A stretch of 64,000 bases of DNA from Owenia fusiformis (lineage: Eukaryota > Annelida > Polychaeta > Sabellida > Oweniidae): contig CAIIXF020000011.1 of assembly GCA_903813345.2 (NCBI GenBank), positions 28,576,166-28,640,165 of the forward strand. Direction: 5' to 3'. The position numbers and the translations under genes are program-made. Positions 32,601 to 64,000 of this stretch are shown here, piece after piece; within the stretch, counting starts at the first letter, position 1, and every line of letters begins with the position of its first letter. Under the pieces are notes generated by a model that saw only the letters and a list, made by a program, of their open reading frames with translations, made no database searches and was not told the origin of the DNA.

Positions 32601-35600
32601 ATATGTTGAGCTACTGAATGGGTCGTTTCCAGGAATTGCTAGAACCTACTGGTTTGATTGGTGTTTCAAATTGATGGTTAAAGTATTTGATTGGATACTG
32701 TTCCCACTCAGCCAATTAATTTCAAAAAATACTTGCGGTCAATTGTTCCACACACATGTAGGCAAATCTTTATACGGAGATCCAACTGTATACGTTATCA
32801 TCTACGTAAATATGCCATTTTGTAAGTTCATTGAACTTATACTGATCATGAAAACATTGAAATAATCAACTTGTTTATGTAATGACTCACTTTAAAGAAT
32901 CATGACTCCCTTTAAAGGATCGTGTTTATAATACACTACAACTACAAGGACACGGAAGCAAGCATTTAATTATAATGTGCATAATCTACACGTGCAGATG
33001 ACAGTGCATTCATAGTCTCTAGTTGATGGAGCTTTTCTATAACGGGAATCGTTATGTTCCATTAACTACAATTTAAAATTGATTTTAGTAAATATAATAG
33101 TTCGACATGACCCTTTAAACTATACGTATACGTATAAGTTGTACTTTCACTTATGTGCGAAATCTCTCTAATAGCTGAATAAAACTGAATAAATAGATGT
33201 AAACACTTTTTTGTTTTGCTTGGGGAAGGCTGCAATAGGCTTTAATGTTAATAACTTACAATAGACACTTCATTTCATGATTTATTGAAAAGTGTTATTT
33301 GAAAGTTTAGAACTTGAATGGCATACTATAAGATGACCCTGTTCATGTACATATTGTGTTTTATCATGAAAATATTGGTTGTTGAACAAATAAATCGAGA
33401 TTTAAAGAATTTATGGAGATTTGGCTCACACTTTTTAAGAAAAGTTGAAAAGTCATAGAAGTGTTGTTAGATTATTAAAATCATTGCTTGTACATGCAAA
33501 AGTTCCCTAGTATTTGCCTTATTGCTTATTCTTCACAAGGGAAAGGGTATTACATTTTGAGAAAGGGCATATTTCAAAATGAGTAATAACAGTAAAAATG
33601 TATCAACAATTCCAAAAAATATTAGTTGATTATTGACTCTGGTCCTTTTACGAATAGTGAATTTAAATTGAATTTTTGCAGACAATGTTTTCATAACTAA
33701 TTAATATAATTGACTACTCACTACTCAAAAAAATCTACTCTAAAAAATCTATTAGCTATTATTAGACACAAAAATCAATGTTTTTCAAAACTAATAGATT
33801 TTTTAGAGTAGTGAGTAGTCAATTATATTGATTATTTATTGTCTCAGTTTGTCCTAAGGCTGCTCATATTCTTTTGGATCTATAATGTGACATAAAAGAA
33901 ATGTGTAAACATTTTTAAAAGCATGAAATGGACAATGATTCAATATAATTTACCTTGTCATCCTTTGCTCTGGGTCTGGTAGCCCAACCTGATATGGCGG
34001 GTAGAGCAGGAATACATAAGATATATCTTCTTCTAGTTCATAATCATGAGGGTTCCCTTGTCTCTGACTATCTAGTAGAAATACCTGCAAGTAAAGTGTG
34101 AAGTCTAGTTTAGAAAGATAAAAATTGAATTGACATATTTTCATGTACCTATTACAAAAAGAAACCATCAAGAGAGAAAACAGTTCTTATCAAGACATTA
34201 ACATGTAAAATGTCACCGATTCCCATTTGTTACAGACACCATTTGTTAAGGACATCAAACGCGAAAGACAATCCGCCATTAACAAAAGGTTGGAGAGTAT
34301 AACAATATCACCACTTGTATACTTTACAGGTTTAGAGTATATTTGATATTGATGTCAATGGGAAATACTAAAAGACCACCGAAGAAATATAATAAAGAGG
34401 CAAAACTAGGAAATCTGGGCTATCAGAGTATTTGGCATTGCATATCAATGACTCATTCATGCTGGTGTCAGTGCAGAGAATGAATATTCACTCCGAGTGT
34501 AACATTTATGATTCCCACAACGGGATATATATTACTTTAAATAAATATGGAGGTTAATTCATCTTGCTTCATGGATTTCTCTCATTAAAACTATAATCAG
34601 AGGAGAAAAAGGCAACCATAGCAAGTAACATTTCGTAGCAATACTGTTCATTCACACTTTTTGTAAATATTCTCAAATTATCTAGATTATCATATTAACA
34701 TGTTATCAACAAGTAAAGTTACTGTAACTTAAAGCAAGAATTAGAGATAGAGTTACAGAATTGAAAAATTTCCAACCAAGTCCTTTACTATGATGCAATT
34801 GCTTAAGTATGTGTATAACAATATCTTAGAAATCTTCCATTGCATTTATATGTTTACTATAAGTTCTGCAATATAATGTTGTCAATGGTTTTTTAGAGCA
34901 GTTGGTCACTGATTGCAGAATGTTTCTCCACCATTGTCTTACAAATTATATATGTACTCGAGGTTATGTCATCTACATTTATACTAAACCAATACTTAAC
35001 ATCAACCACTGGTCACATGAAAAATATCAAAATTATTAGTTAAATGCTGTGATACTCTATCATTGGTCAATTAAATACGAGTGTTACAGAGGGAACTTTC
35101 TACTATACCCGCCATCTGACCTGAATGAGCCACCTGGTGGTGAAACTGGTAACTACCTACTCGCATCTGCGTTATTGTATAAACATATCATACAATATAT
35201 ATAATTATCATACAAGTATTAAATGGTTTTGTACATATTGTATATAAGTACAAAATAAGCATTGTAAATAAATGAAAGTATCATTATAAGTATAAGAAGT
35301 TTCATACAACTGTCAACACCTGCCATTGGTTACAGATGCTGAAAGCTGGTAGCTGGATGGAGAACACTGTCACCAAAAGTTCGGACACCATCCATATCAA
35401 TATATCATATAAGTATCATAAAAAGTCTCACATAATTGTATATAAGTAACAAACAAGTGCTCAAAATTGTGTACAGTTGTCTTCAAAATTTTCAAGTTTC
35501 ATCCACTTGTATAAACACAAGCAAGCATAACAAGTTCCATTCAATTGTATCAATAATCATGCAAGTATAATAATGTTCAGACAATTGTATATAAGTACAT

Positions 35601-38600
35601 GTATCATACAAGTATAGCAAGATTCACAAAATCATAACAATGTATCATACATGTATTACAAGTTTTAAATAATTGTATCAATGTATAATGCAAGTATAAT
35701 AATTTTCATACAATTGTATATAAGTACATGTATCATACAAGTATAGCAAGATTCATAAAATTATATCAATGTATCATACATGTATTACAAGTTTTAAATA
35801 ATTGTATCAATGTATAATGCAAGTATAATAATTTTCATACAAATATATATAAGTACATGTATCATACAAGTATAGCAAGATTCATAAAATCATAACAATG
35901 TATCATACATGTATTACAAGTTTTAAATAATTGTATCAATGTATAATGCAAGTATAATAATTGTCAGACAAATGTATATCAGTACATGTATCATACAAGT
36001 ATAGCAAGATTCATAAAATTATATCAATGTATCATACATGTATTACAAGTTTTAAATAATTGTATCAATGTATAATGCAAGTATAATAATTTTCATACAA
36101 ATATATATAAGTACATGTATCATACAAGTATAGCAAGATTCATAAAATCATAACAATGTATCATACATGTATTACAAGTTTTAAATAATTGTATCAATGT
36201 ATAATGCAAGTATAATAATTTTCATACAATTGTATATAAGTACATGTATCATACAAGTATAGCAAGATTCATAAAATCATAACAATGTATCATACATGTA
36301 TTACAAGTTTTAAATAACTGTATCAATGTATCATGTAAGTATAACTTTCATACAATTGTATATAAGTACATGTATCATACAAGTATAGCAAGATTCATAA
36401 AATTATATCAATGTATCATACATGTATTACAAATTTTAAATAACTGTATCAATGTATCATGTAAGTATAATAATTTTCATACAATTGAAAATAAGTACAT
36501 GTGTCATCATACAAGTATTAGAACTATCAATCAAGTAGTACTTGTACAATTCAGATGGATAGAATATTCTAGATGAGATATCTCCAGACTATTGATATGC
36601 ATTGTAATTATATGTTAATGCCTTGACTTTGTGTATTTTACCATAACAAGTCCCTTGTGTTGAATTCTTATGAAAAGTAGAAGAAGTATCATCACAGAAG
36701 AGCAGAACTAACACAAACATATAATCTATTAATACGTACTAACATTTAAATCTCTCTGAAAGGTTAAGTCAACATTGGTGTGCCTCAACACAATAGGAAA
36801 AAGTAATACATCATAAAATGATTAACAAATTACTACTTTAGGGTTGTAATCATGGTGACTGTATTTAAATGGTGCACAAGAGTAACTTGTCACAAAACAC
36901 AGTGGAAAGACTAACTGACGACAAGCCTGCTCAAGAAAAATCTATTTTCATAACTCAAACTATGAAAACTGAAATGGGACTTTGCATATTTTTTACAATG
37001 GTGGCTTTTGTGACTTTTAGTAAGTAGACTTTTTGAATATTTTCTTTTCACAATCTTTATTGTTCATTTTGTTTATTATGAAATATGTAATCAACAATGA
37101 CAATAGCCAATATAAATAAATACGCTTTTTTATTGTATATACTTTTATTATACTTTTTATTAATGAGGCCGCATGTTTGGTAAATATGGGAAATTATGAG
37201 TTCATGTTTCTGCTTTGATTAACTTATTTGACTTTTTCTATTAATTATAAAATGAGATTTTTACCTTTTTATACATTATAAAAAATAATGTTTCATATCT
37301 AGAAAGCAGATACAACATTAAATACAATAAAGCCAAATGGAAAGTTTGAAGCCAAAATAGAAAACTCTTTACATCTCTTTATCTCATTATGCAAAAGAGA
37401 AAATCAAATTTACTGTCGCGCAGTCCGTAGTTACTGCTGACGTACAACCAAACAAGATACAAGTTTATATTACCCTTTATCTTCATGAAAAATTAGACAT
37501 TAAATAGTTTAATAGGTACAATACAATTAATGGACATCGTGCAATGTTTTATTCATTGTATTCTGAGTCAGAGAACAAATGGTACAATTATAACACTTCT
37601 GGAGAAAAACAAGTACTTGAAGTGATCATACATCCAAACTTCTACTAAAAATATATGAATTTATTTCATCTTGTTTGTTTAGTAAATTATCTTGTTCATT
37701 TTTTGTATTATTGAAATGTTTTTATTGGCATAATCTATTCATGTTACAATGATTTTACAAACATATACCATCCTGTCATGGTATCATAGGAATTAATAAT
37801 TGATCCAAAAAGTATAAATATTGCTCACACATTTTGGCATAGATAAAGCATTATAGTTAACGAGGCGTATAGCCTTTTTATTTTTTTGTGAAGCCACTCA
37901 ATAAAATTACAATTTCTCTGCAACCTGATGTCCAAACAAGATCATTCAAGTATCTATGTGTTCCTGACACGTTTGGGTGTCCAGGAATAACAATGTCTAC
38001 CCAAAGTTTGCACGCAAAATTGACGTAATTCATGACTGAAATAGCGAAGACAAAATTTGAGATTCACAAACAAAATTGCTTGTGAAAACTATTTACAAAA
38101 GTGTTCCAGAGACTGTAATCTACTTGGCTAAGGTTTTATTTGAAGATACATTGCCTTATTAAGCAGGTAGAGGGGCATACAGAACACGGAAGCAAGTGCT
38201 ATGTTGAAAATGTTCTATATTTCAGTTTGAACATGTTATTACATGTCACATAGGCCAGTGTTTGTATTGTCTTATTGGGGCTTTTCGAATTTAGAACGAA
38301 ACTTACCTAAATGGATTTGTGTCTTGGGAACATTTTTGTAAATAGTTATCATAAACAATTCTGAAAGAATATCACATATTTTTGTCTTCCTGATTTCAGA
38401 TCAGGAACACATAGATACTCGAATGATGTTGATTGGACATCAGGGTGCAGAGAAAACATAATTTTACTGAGTGGCTTCACGAAAAAAATAGCAAAAAATA
38501 TTTAATGTAGATGAAACCTCATCAATTTTCATCATTGAAATTTCAAATAACTTTTAAGCAATTCCTTTTAGATGCTGAATATCAACAGAGCTGTCAAGTG

Positions 38601-41600: not shown

Positions 41601-44600
41601 AAAAATGAAATGAAGGTTAAGTTGATGGTTAAGTTTACTGTATGTCAACTTGTTTTCAGATAAACCTTATTTTTATAACTTCTGTGTATTCTAAGGAACA
41701 CTGTTAGTCGAGCAATGTGATCTAATTAATTAGAATATCAGAAGAGAGAAATGCTGGACTTTAAAGTGAAGGATTTATATACCTTTGTGGTTTGCTTCTT
41801 TACTAGCCTCTGTTCCATATTTTCAAAAGGAAGGAATCTAATTTCATAATATACCTCAATGCTTTTAGTGTCTCATAAACAACAAAAATGGGCAAAGGTG
41901 ATTCATTAGTCTGTGGTGTACACATTTGAAGATGAAATAGAATCTGAGCCTTATCTACCAACCATTATTTTAATAATCACCTGGACAGATGAAATGGATG
42001 GACAATCCTCTTAAATCAAACAAATTAAATTTATCAAAGTACAACCAGTTAAATTTTATTTCAAAAATATGCTTTTGTTCTCAGGTAACCTTGGTGAAAC
42101 ATATTAATGGACAAAGTGTGATTTGTAAAGTATACGCATAAATCTCAAAAATATCTCAACTAAACATAAAGGTACATCCTTTCAGACTCAATTTTAAGAT
42201 GAAACCTCCAGAGAACAAAGTTATGGTAATATGAACAAAAGGCTAACATATTTATGTCTGTACTTTATCTGTAACTAAATGTTTCTAAAATCTATTGAAT
42301 GCCCATGCTAAAATTCACATGAATTTATGAGAGGGAATCTTCTCCCCTGTGCTGAGTGTTCTCAACTGTCTTATCATAAAAGTGATAAATAATGATATAT
42401 GTGAAACAGCGATTTGATTTAAATGAAGAACACAGTCATGGGCAAGTGAGCAACTTAATATATGGAAAAATCCTATAATATGCAAATTAGTACAATTAAT
42501 ACCATAGGTGTATACAAAACAAGTTGACAAAGTACTAAATCATTTATATATGAGCCAGGCCACAGGAAAAGGGGTCTTATCACAGATTTTTTCAATATTC
42601 AGATTTTTGGTTTATCTTAAAAAGCACAAAGAAACCTTTCAAATGAGCCATGACTTATGTCCTAACAATTTTTCCTTGCATATATAGACCAAAAAGTTGG
42701 ATCTGAATTTAGCACATTTTCCTCTTAATCATGGGCACATTTTTGGCTCTGTAGCTAGTGTTGTCGCGATTAATCGATACATCGCGATATACATCGCCAA
42801 AGCTGATTCTGGCGATGCATCGATGTCTGAAACAAAACATCGATGTTTTTAAAAAAAATTTCATTTGCTAAAAATCACCCTTTCTTATCTTATTTTGACC
42901 CAAATCGCTTACCTTTCTCATGTCTTATTTCATTTTCTGATGTTTTCTGATATTCTTTCGCTTTAAAACTGTTTTAGTTAGTCGAAATGAACCATTAATC
43001 TAAAACAATTTACTTTACTTTCATTTCACCCTTACTAGCAGTTCCCGGATGTACTAGCGTACTCTTATTAATTTGTTCTGTTCGGTATTTTAGTGCATTA
43101 GCATTCAGTATTTCAGTGCAATTTTCTCAGACTTTTTCTAGATCTACATCGCGATGTGCATCGATGTTTACTACTGAAAATTGCCGATGCATCGATGTAC
43201 GATTATGGCACATCGCGACATCACTATCTGTAGCACAATTTTAATATTTGTGATAAGACCGGTTTTCCTATGGCCAGGCTCATATCCAAATGTTGCTGAC
43301 GTCGGCTTTGCAGATTGATGTGGACCATTTGATACGTTTATAGATCTTGAGACTGGATTTTGTCTGTCCCACTTCATTTGGGACTGAATGCCATATCTTG
43401 CATAGATACTATTATCTACAACTATTTTTGATGTTATAAGTATTGTTTTATCAATTCATATTTATTCTCCAACATATGTTGTTATGGCTTCTGTATGAAT
43501 GAAATGCCCCTTGGTGTTATGGTCCTGGATTGTGATAATGGAACTTGAATGGAAGGGGAGGGGAGAATTAGACATTGTTTACCTTCATTTGATTATGGTT
43601 TTGGATAGTTAGGGTTGTTTTCCTTATGATTGGTGTACATTTAGATGTTTGTCACTTGTGTGATTCTTATTAATGAATTCTGATTGCTATTTTAGTATTT
43701 TTTTTAGTAGGTTCTTCTATTAAACAATAAAAATATTACATACTTTTTTTAGTAGGTTCTTCTACTATTAAACGATAAAAAAGATTACATACTTTTTTGA
43801 TGAAATACACATATTTTTAGCTCATTTTTTACTGATATAATGATGTCTAATTCAGCTGATTGCAGGCCATACAGATCCTACCCTGTTTTCAAAAGACCAT
43901 TACGGCAAATAGATTGGGAAAGATCAACAGTACTTGATGAGGCTGAGAATGAAAAAAGGTAAGCACAATGCAACATTCAAAGATTTTCCAGAAGGTGTTT
44001 GGATTTTGACACAATGAAATTGGGCTGTCACTAGTAATTCAATTGCCACATCCATGGAGCAAGAGTTGGTCAAACATACCATATTATCTCTAAAAAATAC
44101 ATTGTGTATCCTGAAATTAACATGGAAAATGGAGAAACATTGAGAAATTCTAAAGACGGCACATAAAGAAAATGTTGGAAATAAAAAGCTGATAATAGAT
44201 GAAAATCGATACCATGTTTTAACTTCTTTTTAGCCATAACCAATATGCTTTATTTCCAAAATAAAGGTCTAGCTCCAAAATAAAAATTCTCAAAGCCCAA
44301 CTGGAAAAGGAGTAAAAATATTTATGTCAAAATCCCAGTACTAGAATGGAATAACCAATTCAATCTTGAAAGGATTACATAACAGAATATGATAAGAAAT
44401 CAGGAATATAAATATACTTTTACATTGCAGCCTTTTCAAATTTTAATTTGGTTTATAATAAGGAGGCCCTACACAAGATGGCCTCCAATTTTCTTAAGTT
44501 TCCTTATTAAATATTAATAGCATTTTTCTTGAAGGTCTATTTTTGTATCTTTTTTCATATAGGTCTTACTCTCCTTATGTGGACACCTTTGATTTCAAAC

Positions 44601-47600
44601 AACCATATCAACAATCAGAGCGGGACAGATCAACAGCTCTTAATGAACTCGTCAACCAATTAGTAATGGCTATGAAACAAAAAAGGTGAGTACTTAGGAT
44701 GAGTTAATTAAGTGGATCACTGTTCAAAAATGACCCCAAAAGTATAATATTTGTGATTGAAATCTGGTGATATTTTAGCAGGGGTTTCACTCCTTTCCTT
44801 CGATTTTATCCATCTTTCAATCTATTGAAACAGGACCTTTTGAAATGGAATCAAGTATTGCATTAAATGTAGTTATTCTCATGGGCAACATGTGGTGTCA
44901 TGCTATAGCATTGGAGCCACGATTTGATGAGTAGACATTTAACTTTGTGATATCACAATTTTAAAAATTGAGCTTCATGAATCATACCCAGTATCGGCAT
45001 TTAATGTATTCTGTTGCACTTTGGTACATAATTATCCTCTTGGTTTAAATGGCAGAAATCTGCAGTTTGTTCCTTTTTGAATCCTCAAAACCAAGCATAA
45101 AATAATTATTTATCAGAATTTTAATTAATTTGTATTGCTCGAGAAGATCAATCGAAATTTACATTTCACCTAACTTCTTTTCTTTCTTCCCTATGTGTGG
45201 TAGTTCATGATATGCTTTGCACATTTATAACTTTATTTATTTGTTCATTTTTTGGCAAGCAACATGCTCTCATATTATGAATTTGAATAAAGCTTATCTG
45301 ATTATACTTGTTACAACCTTACAAAGTGTGATGAGTGGCTTGCATATATTGCCCTTTAATAGCAAAGAACAGAGGGGGTTAAATATGGAAAACATTGGCA
45401 TATTGTGGTTATTGTTAGCGTAATGATTCTTGATAGCAAGTCGCCACTACAGTCTATGCTGTAGTGGATCACTCTTATGGCTGAATTGGTAGAGCGTCAT
45501 ACTTGTGAGCGAAGGGTCCTGGGTTCAATTCCCGTCTGAGGCATTGAATTTAGCACACTCCCTTTCTCACTAGTGTCTGGCTCGTTACACTACAGCTCCC
45601 TGGACAGACATGCTCTCAGGTTGTTACACTAGAATTTATTATATGAAATATGAGCTGAATTGAGAGTCATCAAAAACATGAATTTTAAATCTCATGGTGA
45701 TAACATATCATGGCCACATAACTGTGAAATCATGGTTTAATCAATCATAAAGCTTTCTTTTTGCTTGCAATGTTATGTTGAAACATATGCTTATCGTACT
45801 TTTTAATGTATGCGTAAAATTGTATGTTTGTTTATTTGTGTTCTCATTCATTTGTTTGTTTCTTGGATCTTCTGCTGTTTGTGACGTATTCTAAATCATT
45901 ATGCAATAGACTTATTTAAGCGTAACAATAAAAAACCACATGAGGCATTTGTTTGCATCCCACAAACTTTATATCAGGAGCACTGTTTGGAATACATATG
46001 GAACAAGGTTCAAAATGTATAAAAGTAAATGAAATCAAATAGGTTGATTTAACGCACAGAAAAATAAAATGTGGGCCTTCCCTGAATATTTGGGCTCATT
46101 TTTAGTTCAGTTTCAATGATGATACACTCTTTTTCAGAAGTTTTTAGCAAACATGAGTTGAAAATGATAAAAATACTTCATTTTGACAATGGTAAATTGG
46201 GATCAAAATGTTGAATGCATGTATACTATCGCTTAACTCTCTGGACTTCCTCATATTTCATAACTTTCAGAGATGCCAGCTGCATTGAGTGTTCTGGTAT
46301 AGCATGCTCAAGCTACTGTCTTACCACTCTCAAACGTCGAACTGCTCTTCCACTAAAGAGGCCTGCTTCTCCTGCAGTAAATAGGCAAACTGCTCTTCAA
46401 GTAGCTAGACGTAGTCCTGGTTGCGCAGGATGTTCTGGACTCGGATGTCCAACTTCTTGCTAAGGTGGGTCTTTATATCAGGTAACCCTGAGGGATATAT
46501 TTATATATTCCAAGGGAGTAAATGTACATAAATACATTTATCCTATGCTAAGTAAAATTTTATATCCCATATCCTGAGTTTGAGGTTTCCATATCCAGAA
46601 CCTCCATATCTCCCGCTCCAGGGCATATCTTCCCGCTTTGAAAAAAATGTTGAACTTTTTTTGAATCCACTGGGTATAGGATAAAGCATTTATGTATGGT
46701 CGGTCTGAATATGGGGTTTATTTGAGATATGCACATCTACCTTTGATCCATACGGTCCCTCAGATAGATATGCATATATCCCTCTGGATAAACCCAATAT
46801 CCAAAACCTCCCAATACATAACCCTTTTTTGCAGGATGCTTACATTTTTATCTAAACGTAATCCTGGTTGTGCTTGGTGTTCTGGACTCAGCTGCTCATA
46901 TTTTTGCTACAAGTAAGGTGGGTCCACATACAGTATCAGGTTCTCCAAAGGAATATATTTATTTATCCCATGGTTGCAAGGATATAGATCGAATATCACA
47001 TGAAGATATATTTGATATGTGGATCAAGATATCATATTTTAGCAAAAAATTCACAAACCATCGAATATCACTTTTAAACTATCGAATATCACGTCTTAAA
47101 AAGTGACATTCAATGGTTAGAAAAGTGATATTCGATGGTTTCGAATTTTTTCAAAAAAAATTTCTTTTTTACATTTTTTAATTATTTTCAAAAATATCTT
47201 TAAAAAATTTCAAAATTTCAAAAAAAATGTAACATTTTTTCACAATTCTTTTTAATTATTTTTTCAAATTTTTTCTCAAATTATACAGAAGCTAAGATTA
47301 CTAATACATTTCATCAAGGGTAATGTTATAAATCACATTCTTTAATACTTATTTATTTTCAGTGTTCAATCAAATAAAACCCTTTAATGCATTATAACAT
47401 TTATTGGCATCAAGTTATTGTCAATGTGTTTTAAAGCATGCTCATTTATCAATGCAAAATAGGCTAAATCATTACTATAATATAAAATGCACATCTCATA
47501 ATAAGCTACATCTGGTAAAGTATAATCATTGCATGTTTTTAATCCTCTGATGTCTTTTAGCTTTGAAGATTAATCTGCCACTATATTTGTCACATACAAA

Positions 47601-50600
47601 TTTGCCTAAATCATTTGGTAATAAATTTGTACTTGTTTCTCATGTAAATGTGTTGGAAACTTATTCGAAATGTGCACACTTTTCCAATGGACTCATTGAA
47701 GTTAGTTAACACATGGGCTCTATCAGATGGGTATGCAACGAGCCATTGAAATACAGACATACTTCAAACAATATGAAAAGTAATAGAATCAGGTTTAACA
47801 AGTGTTTTTGAGAGGATGTAATATTTACATGTGTATGACCTTTTGACCTTGTTTATCTGGCCATTTGAATTTAAATGTATTTGACTGAGAATTCAACGAA
47901 GACAATTCAAGTTTAGGCTGTGTTGTGATTTTAAAAAAATGCTGTCGCCTAACTATGATATTGGTGTTTTCAGAGGCAATGATTGCGTTACCTGTGCAGG
48001 ATGGCAATGCAGTATCTTATGTGGGAGATGATAGGACAACTTATTAACACAGACTGACACTTTTGCAAATATGCCAACATTGATTTTGAATGGAAGACAT
48101 TTCATAGTGATGACTTTCCCAAATAGAAAAAACAGAATATCATATAATAAAAATAAACAATGTAATATTTGAGCCTGTATATTGTAAAAATGAGATATTA
48201 AACCCATATGATAAAATATCATTTTGTTGATTGGGTGGGAGATCAACAAAAGGAAATATTTTATAGTTGTTAACTGAATTTAACAGTCTTGCCAAATGTA
48301 TGGGATTACTTGGTACTGGGGCTAGTTCACCTGGACTTAAATAATCAATTCACACATTCACAATTCAAAATCTCCACCAGGGGAGATCTTAATCAAAGAT
48401 GGCTGACCTACAAAAATATGAATCATCGCCCATGGTCGAAATAAATGCTTTGAAATTTATTTAAAGAAGTGTAAATAGTACATAATTAAAATGTCTTTAG
48501 AATTCTGCAGTAAATGTAGTCCTCTGTTCTGAATACTCTGTTTGATTTCATGCACAAAAACTATCACATCTGGCATAGCACCATTTATAAAACTATCTTG
48601 TTCATCAATTTTGTATGGGTACAAATGTCAAGGAAATGCTTCTGATATACTATGTGTGCAAAGTTTCTTTAATGTACTAAAATGAATAATTTGTGTAAAT
48701 ATACATTGTGAAAAAACAAAATAATCTACATCTTTCTTTTTTCACTAAATAGGGTAAAAATCTTGGCCAACCTATTCAAACTAGAAATCAACAACTCCAC
48801 AAAGTAGCAAATCCTGCATTCAAGTATGAAGATTTCTCCGATTACTGCAAATTCCAACATTGAATGGCAATTTTGGATTTTCTAAGGCTTGAATCTAAAA
48901 TATGATACAATATTTGGATCTGCTACAGGGTGGGCCAAATAATCCATTTTTCGAGTTATAGCATTTTTGAAAACTACATATATTTTAACAACATTTATGA
49001 TAGAGATATAGGAATCACTTTTGCAATTATTCATAAAATGGGATAAATAAATCTTAATAGGTTTCTGAATAAAAGATTTAAGCACAAGACTCAATGCATT
49101 GTTTGCTGAATCATACCATGAAGGTGTTGTTTCAAGACCTTCCAAACCTCTTGGGCTTAAATTCTTTTCAGACATTGCAAATTTTTTTCTACAAAATAAT
49201 CTACAGGAGAGAAATCACTAAAAGAACACATTTCCAATGCCATTTTTTGCAAGGGTCAAGTTGGCAAGTCATCAAATCCAATGTGAAAAATACATTCATC
49301 ACCATGGCAAATGTCTAACTAGTGACCTTGCATGTGTTATTGATATTCCACACACTGTTTATTATGTGAATACTCTGTTCAGATTGGCTGGAATCGGGCA
49401 CACATTGCCTATAGCTATGTGTGAATAATTAATAAATGCAAGTGGTCTATATATGAAAATATACAATTCAAAGGATAATATTCATGGCTCAAACAATAGC
49501 ACCAGACCGACATATTATTCAGCCTGGGAGTCTAATAGGACAGCATGTTCGGTATATACTGAAATTATTTCAAAAAGAAATAATCAAAAAACGGCATCAA
49601 AAAAAGGTGATTGTGAAAATCTGCCTTCTTTCACAGAGAGAACTATTCCAAGTACGTATACTATCTGTGAAGATATATCAGTTTGGTTAGTGTACAGACT
49701 GTAAAACTTGCTCTTTCAATGTTCTTTAGGACTCAGTTAAACATTTTGGCAATCTACCAGATATGACCAACAAGAATAGCACATCTGATTCACTCATGTT
49801 TCACTCAGAATTTATACTAATTAATCATACTAATTAAATTTTTCTTTATATTGAACCAGCCTATCTAATCTTCCCTATTTTTGGTCTCAATGCCATTTCA
49901 ATAATAATGTACCCTGTACATGTTTTGCAGGTTTGAAGACAAGCAACAAGATTTAACCAAGAAGGAAATCCAGAGCTACAATGGACAAAACAGCTGTGTA
50001 ACCTGTCATGCATGGCAATGTTCTATTTTTTGTTGAGAATAACTGGCGAAGAATTAACAAAACAGTATATCCAGTTTAATGTTAAAGTATGTATCATTAC
50101 ACTGCAGCGCTATTGACTCAGTAAAACAACTATTAAATCAATCTCCAGTGCCATTATATCTGGCTAAAATGTTAAACAAATGTTACATAGTTAGAAAACA
50201 CTTGCAATTGTGCTAGAATAACACATAAAGTGGAATGAAAACATTTCATTTTGTTAAGTTTTCCCAATGGTGATTTAAAAGAAATCAAGCTTCGATGTGG
50301 TGCCGCTCAAAAGAATAATTAGCATTATACATTGTATTAATTCGCATTCTCATTAACAGTATTCACAAAACTAATTATTTCTAGTGTAAGAGAAGGCACC
50401 TTCAAAAAAGTTAGTGTTTACGGAACAGTTATAGAGCTAGCAATAATTCAAAACTAATCATCATTATCATTAACAACAGCATTTTACAGTCCAAATACTG
50501 TAACATACAGGGTGACCCATAAGAAATAATAATTTTTGTAAAATACTGTAACATACTTATGTGAAACCTGTTTAAGTGGAACGGCTTTCATTTGGAGGTG

Positions 50601-53600
50601 TTTCACACACAGAGGTTCATTTTACATTAATACAATGGATAACTGGAGTGATCTATGAGATTTCAAAATTGTATGGAATGAAAAATCTCCTCGAAACTAT
50701 ACATAGAGATCTGTGAGATTTACAAATATTAAATGAGATCCCTGAGATCTCAGTCTCATGTCATGTTATGTAATTCAGCTAATTAAATCTTTTTTTTTAA
50801 ATTAAATCTTTGAAATTGTGTTTACCTGCTGGGCAAGAACTCTCAATCTTTCACACTCCATCCCTGAGCAGTCTTTCCTGACAGCGACCTTGACCTAGAA
50901 CAGATAACATACCTCATTAAATTGTTAACTCTCTGTTCGCTGCCCATTGATAATAACCTTCATTTTCAGAAATATTAAATTTCTGTAAAAATGATACCAT
51001 ATTTGACTTCTACATAAAAAATTACTGCAACAAATGACTTTGAAATTTTAATTTTATTTGAAAATATGATTCCATTTTGTAAAATCATGAAAAGTAAAAT
51101 AAACCTCTTCTTGTCTTGAACAGATAACAATTTTGAACACTTTAAGTGCCAATTAATTGTCAAAAAAGTTACATTAAAAATTGATTCACTAAATCTGTTT
51201 ATCATTTAAGTTTAGGGGAACAATTTATTTGTCTGCCATGTTATCTGACCGAAATTAGCCTGCTGGTAGTAAAATTACCTACTGATATCTAGTATAGGTA
51301 ATTGTGTGTTTTATAATAAAGCTAACCTGACCGATGTCTCCATAGAAGTTGTCAGAATTAGCGTGGAAAAGCGTCATGATTTGATTGACACTGTACAGAG
51401 AGACATCTATAGCTTTTTGCAAAGCTTCTGCTGTCAAGTACCACATTTGTTCAGACAATATCGGCCCTGAACTCAAGATAGCATGTCTGGAATAGAAGAA
51501 TGAGATGAGCAAGGTTGCAAGGTCAATCAAAGAATAATTTTGCTTTACTAATATTATTGTACCTTTTAAGAATGCAATTATGAAATCTTGAAAATAAGAG
51601 TCATTCAATAAATATTAATAAATACAAATTCTCTAACATCATGTTAATATTATAATACAAAAGTATTAAACAAGGCATCAACATGACAAAATGTCACCAC
51701 CTAGTTGCTCACAATATTATGAGTTCAATCTTAAGTCAGATTTGAATTTTTGAGAAGTCTTTGAGAAGATCATCGAAGGTGAAATCTCAAATCTAAAGTC
51801 ACATGTGAACTTCTGAGAACTTGTAGATGATTTTGAAAAGAAAATTGGTCAATTTGAATCAAGTTGAATAAAAGGCAAGACCTTGGGAATGTCATTGAAG
51901 CTCAAATCTTAAGTCAAACTCAGATGTGAACTTCTGAGAACTTGTAGATGATTTTGAGTTGAAGTTGAAAAAAGAACTTTTTGGACCTTGGAAGGGTCAC
52001 TGGAGATCAAATCTTAAATATGAAGTCAGATTTGATTAATTGAACTTCTGAAAACTTGTAGATGATTTTGAAAAAACTGAAGTCAGTCTGAACAGTATTT
52101 GTCAAGTTATTGGAAGTTGTAAGAATTTGTTACAGACACCTATCGGCGATCAACTGCCAACCACCAACCACCGCCGTCAAAAAAACGGAGACCATAAGAT
52201 ACCACTTTTTGGTGGTGGCATAATAAACGGAGACCATAAGATACCACTTTTTGGTGGTGGCATAATAAACCACTTTCATAGCTCAGAATTGCAATCATTT
52301 TAAATTTACATAATTGTTTGTAACCATACTTTAAATGTCTCACTTCGTTGAATGAATTTAGTTGACAGAAATCAAACATATACTTTGTTGTTTGTAACCA
52401 TACTTTAAATGGCTCACTTCGTTGAATGAATTTAGTTGACAGCAATCACACATATACTTTGTAAGCTTACTGACCGCAACTCCTATAGCACATTTTAACC
52501 ATGAGTTTCTCTTGAAAGCACACGATTTTAACCCATTGTCATTTGACACAAAACATACCGTATACAGGAGCACCCTAATCTGGATATGGTTTCTATTGGT
52601 TGAGCAATACATTCTATAAGTACACTGTAGAGGTTTTGTAGCATGTCTCCCATGCTAGTCTCGCAACTAGTGGTCCCTGGAAACCGCAGAAGTTTAATAA
52701 AACAGTATCCTTGGCATTTTTATGCGCACGACATTATAGTTATGATTCAATATTTTGTTGGCATGACTTAATTTCTAAGCACACAAGAGGAAATGTAAAG
52801 AAGGTTGTCATTGAAATACTTTGGAAAAGATTGGTAAAATTCAATATTTTATTTCTATATGGCCATAATCACATGTAGATCATGACAAATGAAATTCAGA
52901 AATCCCAACCAATATGATAGAACCCAGGTAAGATATCTATATTTCCCTCAGGATATATCCAATATCCATAATAACCTCCCATGAAATAACCCAAATTTAT
53001 CTGTCTAGTTTAACCATGATACTGCTCTCCACATTAAAGTTATTTGTTTTTTTCTTGAAGTAATATTTCCATTTTGATAACTACATATTGAAAAGATGTC
53101 ACTGTGTTTAGTAAGTAAACTAATGAAGAAAAGCAAAGTAATAGATGAACACCAGTTCTATTCTGATCCTTTCATACATATAGCTATACTTTTAATTTAC
53201 CTGTAAACTGGACAACATATTCCACGACTAGATCAGTACACATTCCACAGCATTGTTTGAAGTTATTGGCCATACTATCCCAGTAGCCCTTAATGGTGTT
53301 GCCATAGCGTAACCATGACTGCAGCATGGGAAGTAGCAGGTGATTGGCACAATGGATACTGAAGTCTGGACCTGTAAATATCATCAAATTCAAATATTTT
53401 CACATTTACATACATAGACATCACTTTCCTTCTTTCTTTCTCTTTAATTGATTTATTATATGAAAAATTAACGTCAGTAGGATTATTTAATTCATGTGAG
53501 CCATCTTTAAATATTAAGATAAACATTTTTGACAAAATGGGTATAAACATTCAATAGGATGTTAAGCCAAATTATGCATTGCACTAATCCCTAATGCCTC

Positions 53601-62769: not shown

Positions 62770-64000
62770 AAGTCTATTTGTCGACCATACAAGGTAATGA
62801 TAGAGTCTTTTCGTCTTATGTACGATGCAATGATGAAGTCTATATGTCGACCATACAAGGTAATGATAGAGTCTTTTCGTCTTATGTACAATGCAATGAT
62901 GAAGTCTATATGTCGACCATACAAGGTAATGATAGAGTCTTTTCGTCTTATGTACAATGCAATGATGAAGTCTATATGTCGACCATACAAGGTAATGATA
63001 GAGTCTTTTCGTCTTATGTACAATGCAATGATGAAGTCTATATGTCGACCATACAAGGTAATGATAGAGTCTTTTCGTCTTATGTACAATGCAATGATGA
63101 AGTCTATTTGTCGACCATACAAGGTAATGATAGAGTCTTTTCGTCTTATGTACGATGCAATGATGAAGTCTATATGTCGACCATACAAGGTAATGATAGA
63201 GTCTTTTCGTCTTATGTACAATGCAATGATGAAGTCTATATGTCGACCATACAAGGTAATGATAGAGTCTTTTCGTCTTATGTACAATGCAATGATGAAG
63301 TCTATATGTCGACCATACAAGGTAATGATAGAGTCTTTTCGTCTTATGTACAATGCAATGATGAAGTCTATATGTCGACCATACAAGGTAATGATAGAGT
63401 CTTTTCGTCTTATGTACGATGCAATGATGAAGTCTATATGTCGACCATACAAGGTAATGATAGAGTCTTTTCGTCTTATGTACAATGCAATGATGAAGTC
63501 TATTTGTCGACCATACAAGGTAATGATAGAGTCTTTTCGTCTTATGTACGATGCAATGATGAAGTCTATTTGTCGACCATACAAGGTAATAATAGAGTCT
63601 TTTCGTCTCATGTACAATGCAATGATGAAGTCTATATGTCGACCATACAAGGTAATGATAGAGTCTTTTCGTCTTATGTACAATGCAATGATGAAGTCTA
63701 TATGTCGACCATACAAGGTAATGATAGAGTCTTTTCGTCTTATGTACAATGCAATGATGAAGTCTATTTGTCGACCATACAAGGTAATAATAGAGTCTTT
63801 TCGTCTTATGTACAATGCAATGATGAAGTCTATATGTCGACCATACAAGGTAATGATAGAGTCTTTTTGTCTTATGTACAATGCAATGATGAAGTCTATA
63901 TGTCGACCATACAAGGTAATAATAGAGTCTTTTCGTCTTATGTACGATGCAATGATGAAGTCTATATGTCGACCATACAAGGTAATAATAGAGTCTTTTC

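Follow-up and report, generated by a model that had tools for sequence, protein, structure and literature searches.

A secreted-peptide gene of Owenia fusiformis with likely swappable exons for four-cysteine peptides

The exchange of one peptide for another by splicing is already known from several animal genes. In calcitonin/CGRP, as well as in the calcitonin-type genes of sea cucumber and brittle star, splicing changes which peptide is made, or whether one or two are made (PMC12638048), while the FMRFamide gene of Lymnaea joins a shared first exon to different peptide exons, its two mRNAs being found in different neurons (PMC4208409). Alternatively spliced transcripts of a single oyster gene, Cragi-CCCGS, give two Cys-rich secreted peptides (PMC8398477). 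Moreover, in the protostome genes for CCWamide/agatoxin-like peptide (ALP) the first exon carries the signal peptide, the last exon carries the peptide, and the cleavage site is split in phase 2 (PMC8557429). The subject of this report is a gene of comparable layout in 64,000 nucleotides of the annelid Owenia fusiformis (contig CAIIXF020000011.1, positions 28,576,166 to 28,640,165). This whole stretch is referred to as the window; positions are numbered from its first letter, and all parts of the gene lie on the plus strand. Judged by its sequence, the locus is quite probably one secreted-peptide gene with swappable exons, in which a common precursor head (exons 1-3) would be joined to one of four peptide exons (4-7), exons 6 and 7 being terminal and exons 4 and 5 stop-bearing cassettes. 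Its product is probably a neuropeptide.

The form of the gene that ends in exon 6 agrees with the CCWamide/ALP layout in all three respects, namely a signal peptide in the first exon, the peptide in the last and a cleavage site split in phase 2. The peptides themselves differ: those of CCWamide/ALP have seven or more Cys and an aromatic, amidated C-terminus, whereas the Owenia peptides have four Cys and, in exon 6, a predicted Cys-amide; furthermore, an array of alternative last exons is not described in the available text of that source (PMC8557429). The calcitonin-type genes share the proposed change of peptide by splicing, but their two N-terminal Cys, the Pro-amide of many taxa and the limit of two peptides are not found here, and the peptides are unrelated (PMC12638048). 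The Lymnaea gene encodes FMRFamide-related peptides in two transcripts (PMC4208409), in contrast to four paralogous single exons in Owenia, and the oyster peptides have eight Cys in 42 residues, with no relative reported outside oyster in the available account (PMC8398477). Trissin starts with C-x2-C and later has C-x3-C, like the Owenia peptides, but it stands directly after the signal peptide and is not amidated, whereas the Owenia peptides are C-terminal (PMC7179676). Membership in the trissin family has been rejected, since its framework is C-x2-C-x3-C-x3-C-x6-CC (PMC7179676) and that of all five Owenia peptides is C-x2-C-x4-C-x3-C, with no CC. For the mollusc relatives of the trissin receptor, no ligand was known as of 2021 (PMC8557429).

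The precursor head starts with the coding part of exon 1 (36962-37019), which encodes the predicted signal peptide MKTEMGLCIFFTMVAFVTF, judged by hydrophobicity with no SignalP run, and ends at a phase-1 donor, GTAAGT. Exon 2 (43856-43958) is left in phase 2 and exon 3 (44563-44685, 123 nucleotides) is entered and left in phase 2; the two are partly paralogous, with 74% identity over 57 bases (E 0.004). No convincing signal-peptide exon with a phase-2 donor was found, either in the single candidate listed for 20000-43860 or in the 21 listed for 1-43865. A looser listing, from 29000 onwards, included 36962-37019, which has a phase-1 donor; reading the frame then led to the acceptor at 43856 that fits it. 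A middle exon leading from phase 1 to phase 2 was also sought, and its four weak candidates were rejected.

The model consisting of exons 1, 2, 3 and 6 was built from the sequence before any related protein had been seen. An unnamed Owenia fusiformis protein (P0001) equals these joined exons letter for letter, including the join of exon 1 to exon 2 and that of 44685 to 47974, that is, exon 3 to exon 6, which is thus present in a public gene model. P0001 has 31 further N-terminal residues, contiguous in the window, from an in-frame ATG at 36869. The stretch involved (36869-36961), although counted as coding in P0001, is more likely a 5' leader, with the signal peptide starting at the later Met, and the upstream start probably reflects the choice of the longest frame. 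P0001 presumably belongs to the annotation of the Owenia genome paper, in which 31,678 of 31,903 transcripts have support from RNA sequencing (PMC9977687). Among the four candidate joins, outside support is limited to that between exons 3 and 6.

An earlier note on this DNA had claimed that exons 2 and 3 both end in AAA AG and that each of the four downstream exons completes an Arg codon at the junction. Both claims are borne out. Exon 2 ends in GAA AAA AG (43958) and exon 3 in CAA AAA AG (44685), with strong donors scoring 11.29 and 12.41, respectively, by a simple matrix; here and below, donor and acceptor matrices use frequencies from general knowledge and are not trained on Owenia. Eight of the 3489 GT sites on the plus strand of the window score at least 10.75. 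The acceptors before 46271, 46835, 47974 and 49931 are all of phase 2, and the exons behind them start with A, G, A and G, which gives AGA or AGG, hence Arg, in 4/4 joins; a G likewise follows the acceptor of exon 3. This coincidence alone is weak evidence. A or G follows 55.6% of the YAG triplets in bases 1-56000, which gives a chance of 0.556^4 = 0.095 for 4/4, and with an assumed 75% preference for A or G at real acceptors that chance becomes about 0.32. The Lys-Arg junction is unremarkable because the phase-2 splice consensus favours it: AG on the donor side and an exon starting with A or G always make an Arg codon. A Lys-Arg site split at a splice junction has been published for the CCWamide/ALP genes (PMC8557429).

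Each of the four peptide exons is open in frame to a stop of its own, as had also been stated. Exon 4 (46271-46463, stop TAA at 46461-46463) encodes two four-Cys peptides, CIECSGIACSSYC and CAGCSGLGCPTSC, its product after the Lys-Arg being DASCIECSGIACSSYCLTTLKRR...ARRSPGCAGCSGLGCPTSC. Exon 5 (46835-46916, stop TAA at 46914-46916) encodes MLTFLSKR-NPGCAWCSGLSCSYFCYK, and its product after the Lys-Arg reads MLTFLSKRNPGCAWCSGLSCSYFCYK. Exon 6 (47974-48031, stop TGA at 48029-48031), the one used in the public gene model, encodes GNDCVTCAGWQCSILCGR, whose C-terminal Gly-Arg predicts amidation, leaving a peptide that would end in Cys-amide. Exon 7 (49931-50036, stop TGA at 50034-50036) encodes FEDKQQDLTKKEIQSYNGQNSCVTCHAWQCSIFC. 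The peptides thus number five in four exons, exon 4 holding two, and not four as first counted. The idea that a Cys peptide comes immediately after the newly formed Lys-Arg must also be amended: the join does make the Lys-Arg, but in exons 5 and 7 LSKR and LTKK, respectively, come first.

The Cys framework C-x2-C-x4-C-x3-C has five matches in the six frames of the 64 kb, all of them in exons 4-7 and all in frame. In 100 single-base shuffles matches of the same spacing averaged 0.03, with a maximum of 1, and the five frameworks are not due to chance. A relaxed Cys pattern added four matches in the window, two on the plus strand (40467 and 56685) and two on the minus strand (38186 and 18533), none of the same spacing. 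The 4/3 loop spacing of alpha-conotoxins resembles the x4/x3 of the Owenia peptides and is treated as a chance resemblance.

The peptide exons are homologous neighbours of compatible phase, as expected of mutually exclusive tandem exons. Between 46 and 72% of the bases are shared among the peptide cores (mean 56%), yet 20/20 Cys are kept, for which a simple neutral star model gives P = 5e-8. By eye two groups of cores can be told apart, those of exons 4 and 5 with a CSG motif and those of exons 6 and 7 with CVTC..WQCSI; over 61 nucleotides, exon 5 and the end of exon 4 are 77% identical, and the core of exon 7 is 72% identical to exon 6. When the first and second peptides of exon 4 are called 4a and 4b, the pairs 4b-5 and 6-7, picked for being the closest, differ at about 9 of 16 synonymous and 13 of 62 non-synonymous sites (rounded site counts; Fisher p = 0.011).

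Several observations weigh against a set of four swappable exons. Two of them, the database result and the similarity of a piece of intron, also speak for a different account, in which only exon 6 is used and exons 4, 5 and 7 are left over from tandem duplication and are decaying or not spliced. The exon 6 form alone came back from the protein database, and a search whose query included exons 4, 5 and 7 gave no protein containing any of them, which makes it possible that these exons are rarely or never used. In the 4b/5 duplicate a piece of intron is as similar (74/100 aligned bases identical) as the coding piece (45/59); the coding part is therefore not clearly better kept, and duplication alone explains much of that pair. 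Two of the ten pairs of cores, 4a-6 and 4b-7, show almost no synonymous excess. Acceptor scores are mediocre for exons 4 and 6 (1.3 and 0.34) and poor for exon 2 (-2.5), yet the exon 2 acceptor is the one used in P0001. As to the transcript ends discussed below, the stop of exon 4 is followed at 54 and 88 bases by AGTAAA, a weaker poly(A) variant, and the strong donors behind exons 4 and 5 count as one event, because these exons are duplicates. Nevertheless, exons 4, 5 and 7 have no frame break and keep 16/16 Cys, the acceptors of exons 5 and 7 are strong (5.29 and 5.14, the 99th percentile of AG sites being 4.5), and strong donors lie past the stops of exons 4 and 5. The relic account is thus considered unlikely, and swappable peptide exons remain likely but unproven; both an alternative choice of exon and any use of exons 4, 5 and 7 are still inference.

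The earlier note had taken all four peptide exons as terminal, which seems right for only two of them. Exon 6 is followed by two AATAAA poly(A) signals (48146-48157, the first 115 bases past the stop) and exon 7 by a candidate signal ATTAAA (50132-50137, 96 bases past the stop), and both look like terminal exons. After the stops of exons 4 and 5, AATAAA and ATTAAA are absent within 400 bases. This contrast is suggestive only, because AATAAA occurs at 1.5 per kb in 34-51 kb. In exon 4 the stop is directly followed by the last exon base, G (46464), and a donor GTGGGT scoring 10.76 (46464-46470). Exon 5 has tandem donors five bases apart (46913-46923): the upstream one (CAA|GTAAGG, 8.51), after 46912, leaves the exon stop-free and in phase 2, joining exon 6 or 7 in frame, and the downstream one (TAAG|GTGGGT, 10.76), after 46917, keeps the stop. 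A score of 8.5 is reached by 35 of the 3489 GT sites. In 36-51 kb, only exons 3 and 2 have stronger plus-strand donors than the two that lie past the stops of exons 4 and 5. Moreover, a donor of at least 10.7 within 0-5 bases downstream of a stop is found at 2 of 4218 plus-strand stop triplets, and these two are the stops of exons 4 and 5. Both exons are more likely stop-bearing cassettes than terminal exons.

The same donors would also suit a gene that normally splices exons 4-7 one after another, with the first stop setting the product and the remainder serving as 3' untranslated region (UTR) or as bait for decay, all the more as exon 5 can be joined to exon 6 or 7 in frame. P0001, however, joins exon 3 straight to exon 6, and in a chain of exons 4, 5 and 6 the stop of exon 4 would lie about 80 bases before the last junction. 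A stop at such a distance is usually a decay signal. Joining in series is therefore regarded as quite improbable.

Still less credit, to the point of near dismissal, is given to the idea that the peptide exons are separate genes with their own signal peptides. Upstream, the frame of exon 4 stays open as far as an ATG at 46215, giving a leader, MHVYYRLTLWTSSYFITFR, that is not convincing as a signal peptide; apart from this, nothing was found that speaks for separate genes. Fifteen hydrophobic ATG frames were listed in 44686-49930, none with a phase-2 donor above 2.7, and the four acceptors agree with the exon 3 donor in being of phase 2. Signal peptides belonging to exons 4-7, which the earlier note had named as a finding that would overturn its reading, were looked for, and no such exon was found in 44686-49930.

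The shared head with a swappable last exon proposed in that note can hence be retained in modified form: a signal-peptide head, a Lys-Arg made at the splice, four homologous stop-bearing exons and the 44685-47974 join of the public model stand on its side, but the four exons do not all appear to be terminal. In the gene with swappable exons, exon 1 would provide the signal peptide, followed by a spacer from exons 2 and 3 whose last residue is Lys. Splicing to any one of the four paralogous exons would complete a Lys-Arg convertase site and add one or two four-Cys peptides, and the same precursor head would be released with different disulfide peptides according to the exon chosen. Transcripts would end at exon 6 or 7, each of which has a poly(A) signal of its own. 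The donor past their stop would connect exons 4 and 5 to exon 6 or 7, the latter then acting as 3' UTR; since only one base would lie between the stop and the final junction, such an mRNA would not be expected to undergo nonsense-mediated decay. In exon 5 the tandem donors could act as a toggle, the upstream one dropping the stop and giving a precursor with two peptides in tandem. The complete arrangement (one head, four paralogous exons, five four-Cys peptides of a family for which no description was found, two stop cassettes borrowing their 3' UTR, and one of these with a donor choice between stopping and reading on) is offered tentatively, as possible rather than probable.

Searches for relatives returned little besides P0001. 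With the joined peptides as query, it was the only one of 17 candidates within the E limit of 1 (E = 9.1e-3). The database used groups its sequences at 90%, and two sequences make up the cluster of P0001, which could therefore conceal another isoform of similar sequence. With the four aligned isoforms as query, only P0001 was found at E up to 10 among 1669 candidates, and no relative outside Owenia, in word-based searches of a kind that would miss distant relatives. The product of exons 1-2-3-4 had no meaningful Pfam or PDB match (best E 0.021 and 0.065, with unrelated proteins), and the window has no Rfam match at gathering scores. In the literature searched, the exact strings CVTCAGWQCSI and CSGLSCSYFC do not occur, and no paper was found that names these peptides. 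Several Cys-bearing annelid peptides are named in a Platynereis neuropeptide paper (PMC3890597).

The precursor has features of secreted neuropeptide precursors, that is, a predicted signal peptide and short peptides flanked by dibasic sites. As a question separate from that of splicing, the products could instead be secreted defence, mucus or other non-signalling peptides; they are Cys-rich and diversified and no relative was found outside Owenia, which fits fast-evolving defence peptides. However, short dibasic-flanked peptides, an amidation signal as in exon 6 and a precursor split at its cleavage site are seen in neuropeptide genes (the split site in PMC8557429), and a non-signalling role is held to be the lesser possibility, a neuropeptide remaining the probable product.

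Owenia represents an annelid lineage regarded as early branching, and the array would therefore be well suited to following how a single ligand becomes several by duplication of exons. If the proposal is true, four homologous exons, five disulfide peptides and one split cleavage site would amount to an unusually compact diversification of a signal. Questions that become testable are which exon is used in each cell, whether different variants have different receptors, and whether stop-bearing cassettes are a general route to peptide choice.

Some further observations concern the introns of the array and the surroundings of the gene. The intron between exons 4 and 5 (46464-46834) has complementary stretches near its ends, with 20-base arms of 85% complementarity (z = -2.8; matched by one of 100 shuffles). 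The next intron, that between exons 5 and 6, contains an inverted repeat forming a strong RNA hairpin (47045-47151; 47040-47156 folds at -48.1 kcal/mol, z = -13.0), which may be a relic of a mobile element or a splicing structure. A stretch resembling a transfer RNA (tRNA), and thereby the head of a short interspersed element, was seen by eye at 45480-45545, with no tRNA search run. On the minus strand, 24354-25241 matches the Pfam family BIG2_C at 27.9 bits, against a cutoff of 27. Open, splice-flanked pieces lie on the same strand at 33954-34084 and 51327-51486, and by eye at 50806-50897; two of the further minus-strand pieces were tested against Pfam and had no match. As a guess, an ARFGEF-type gene may contain the peptide gene in one of its introns. 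Finally, from 56767 to the end of the window at 64000, a 66-base tandem unit is repeated in about 110 copies with 97% matches, open in several frames, and this array is probably satellite DNA.

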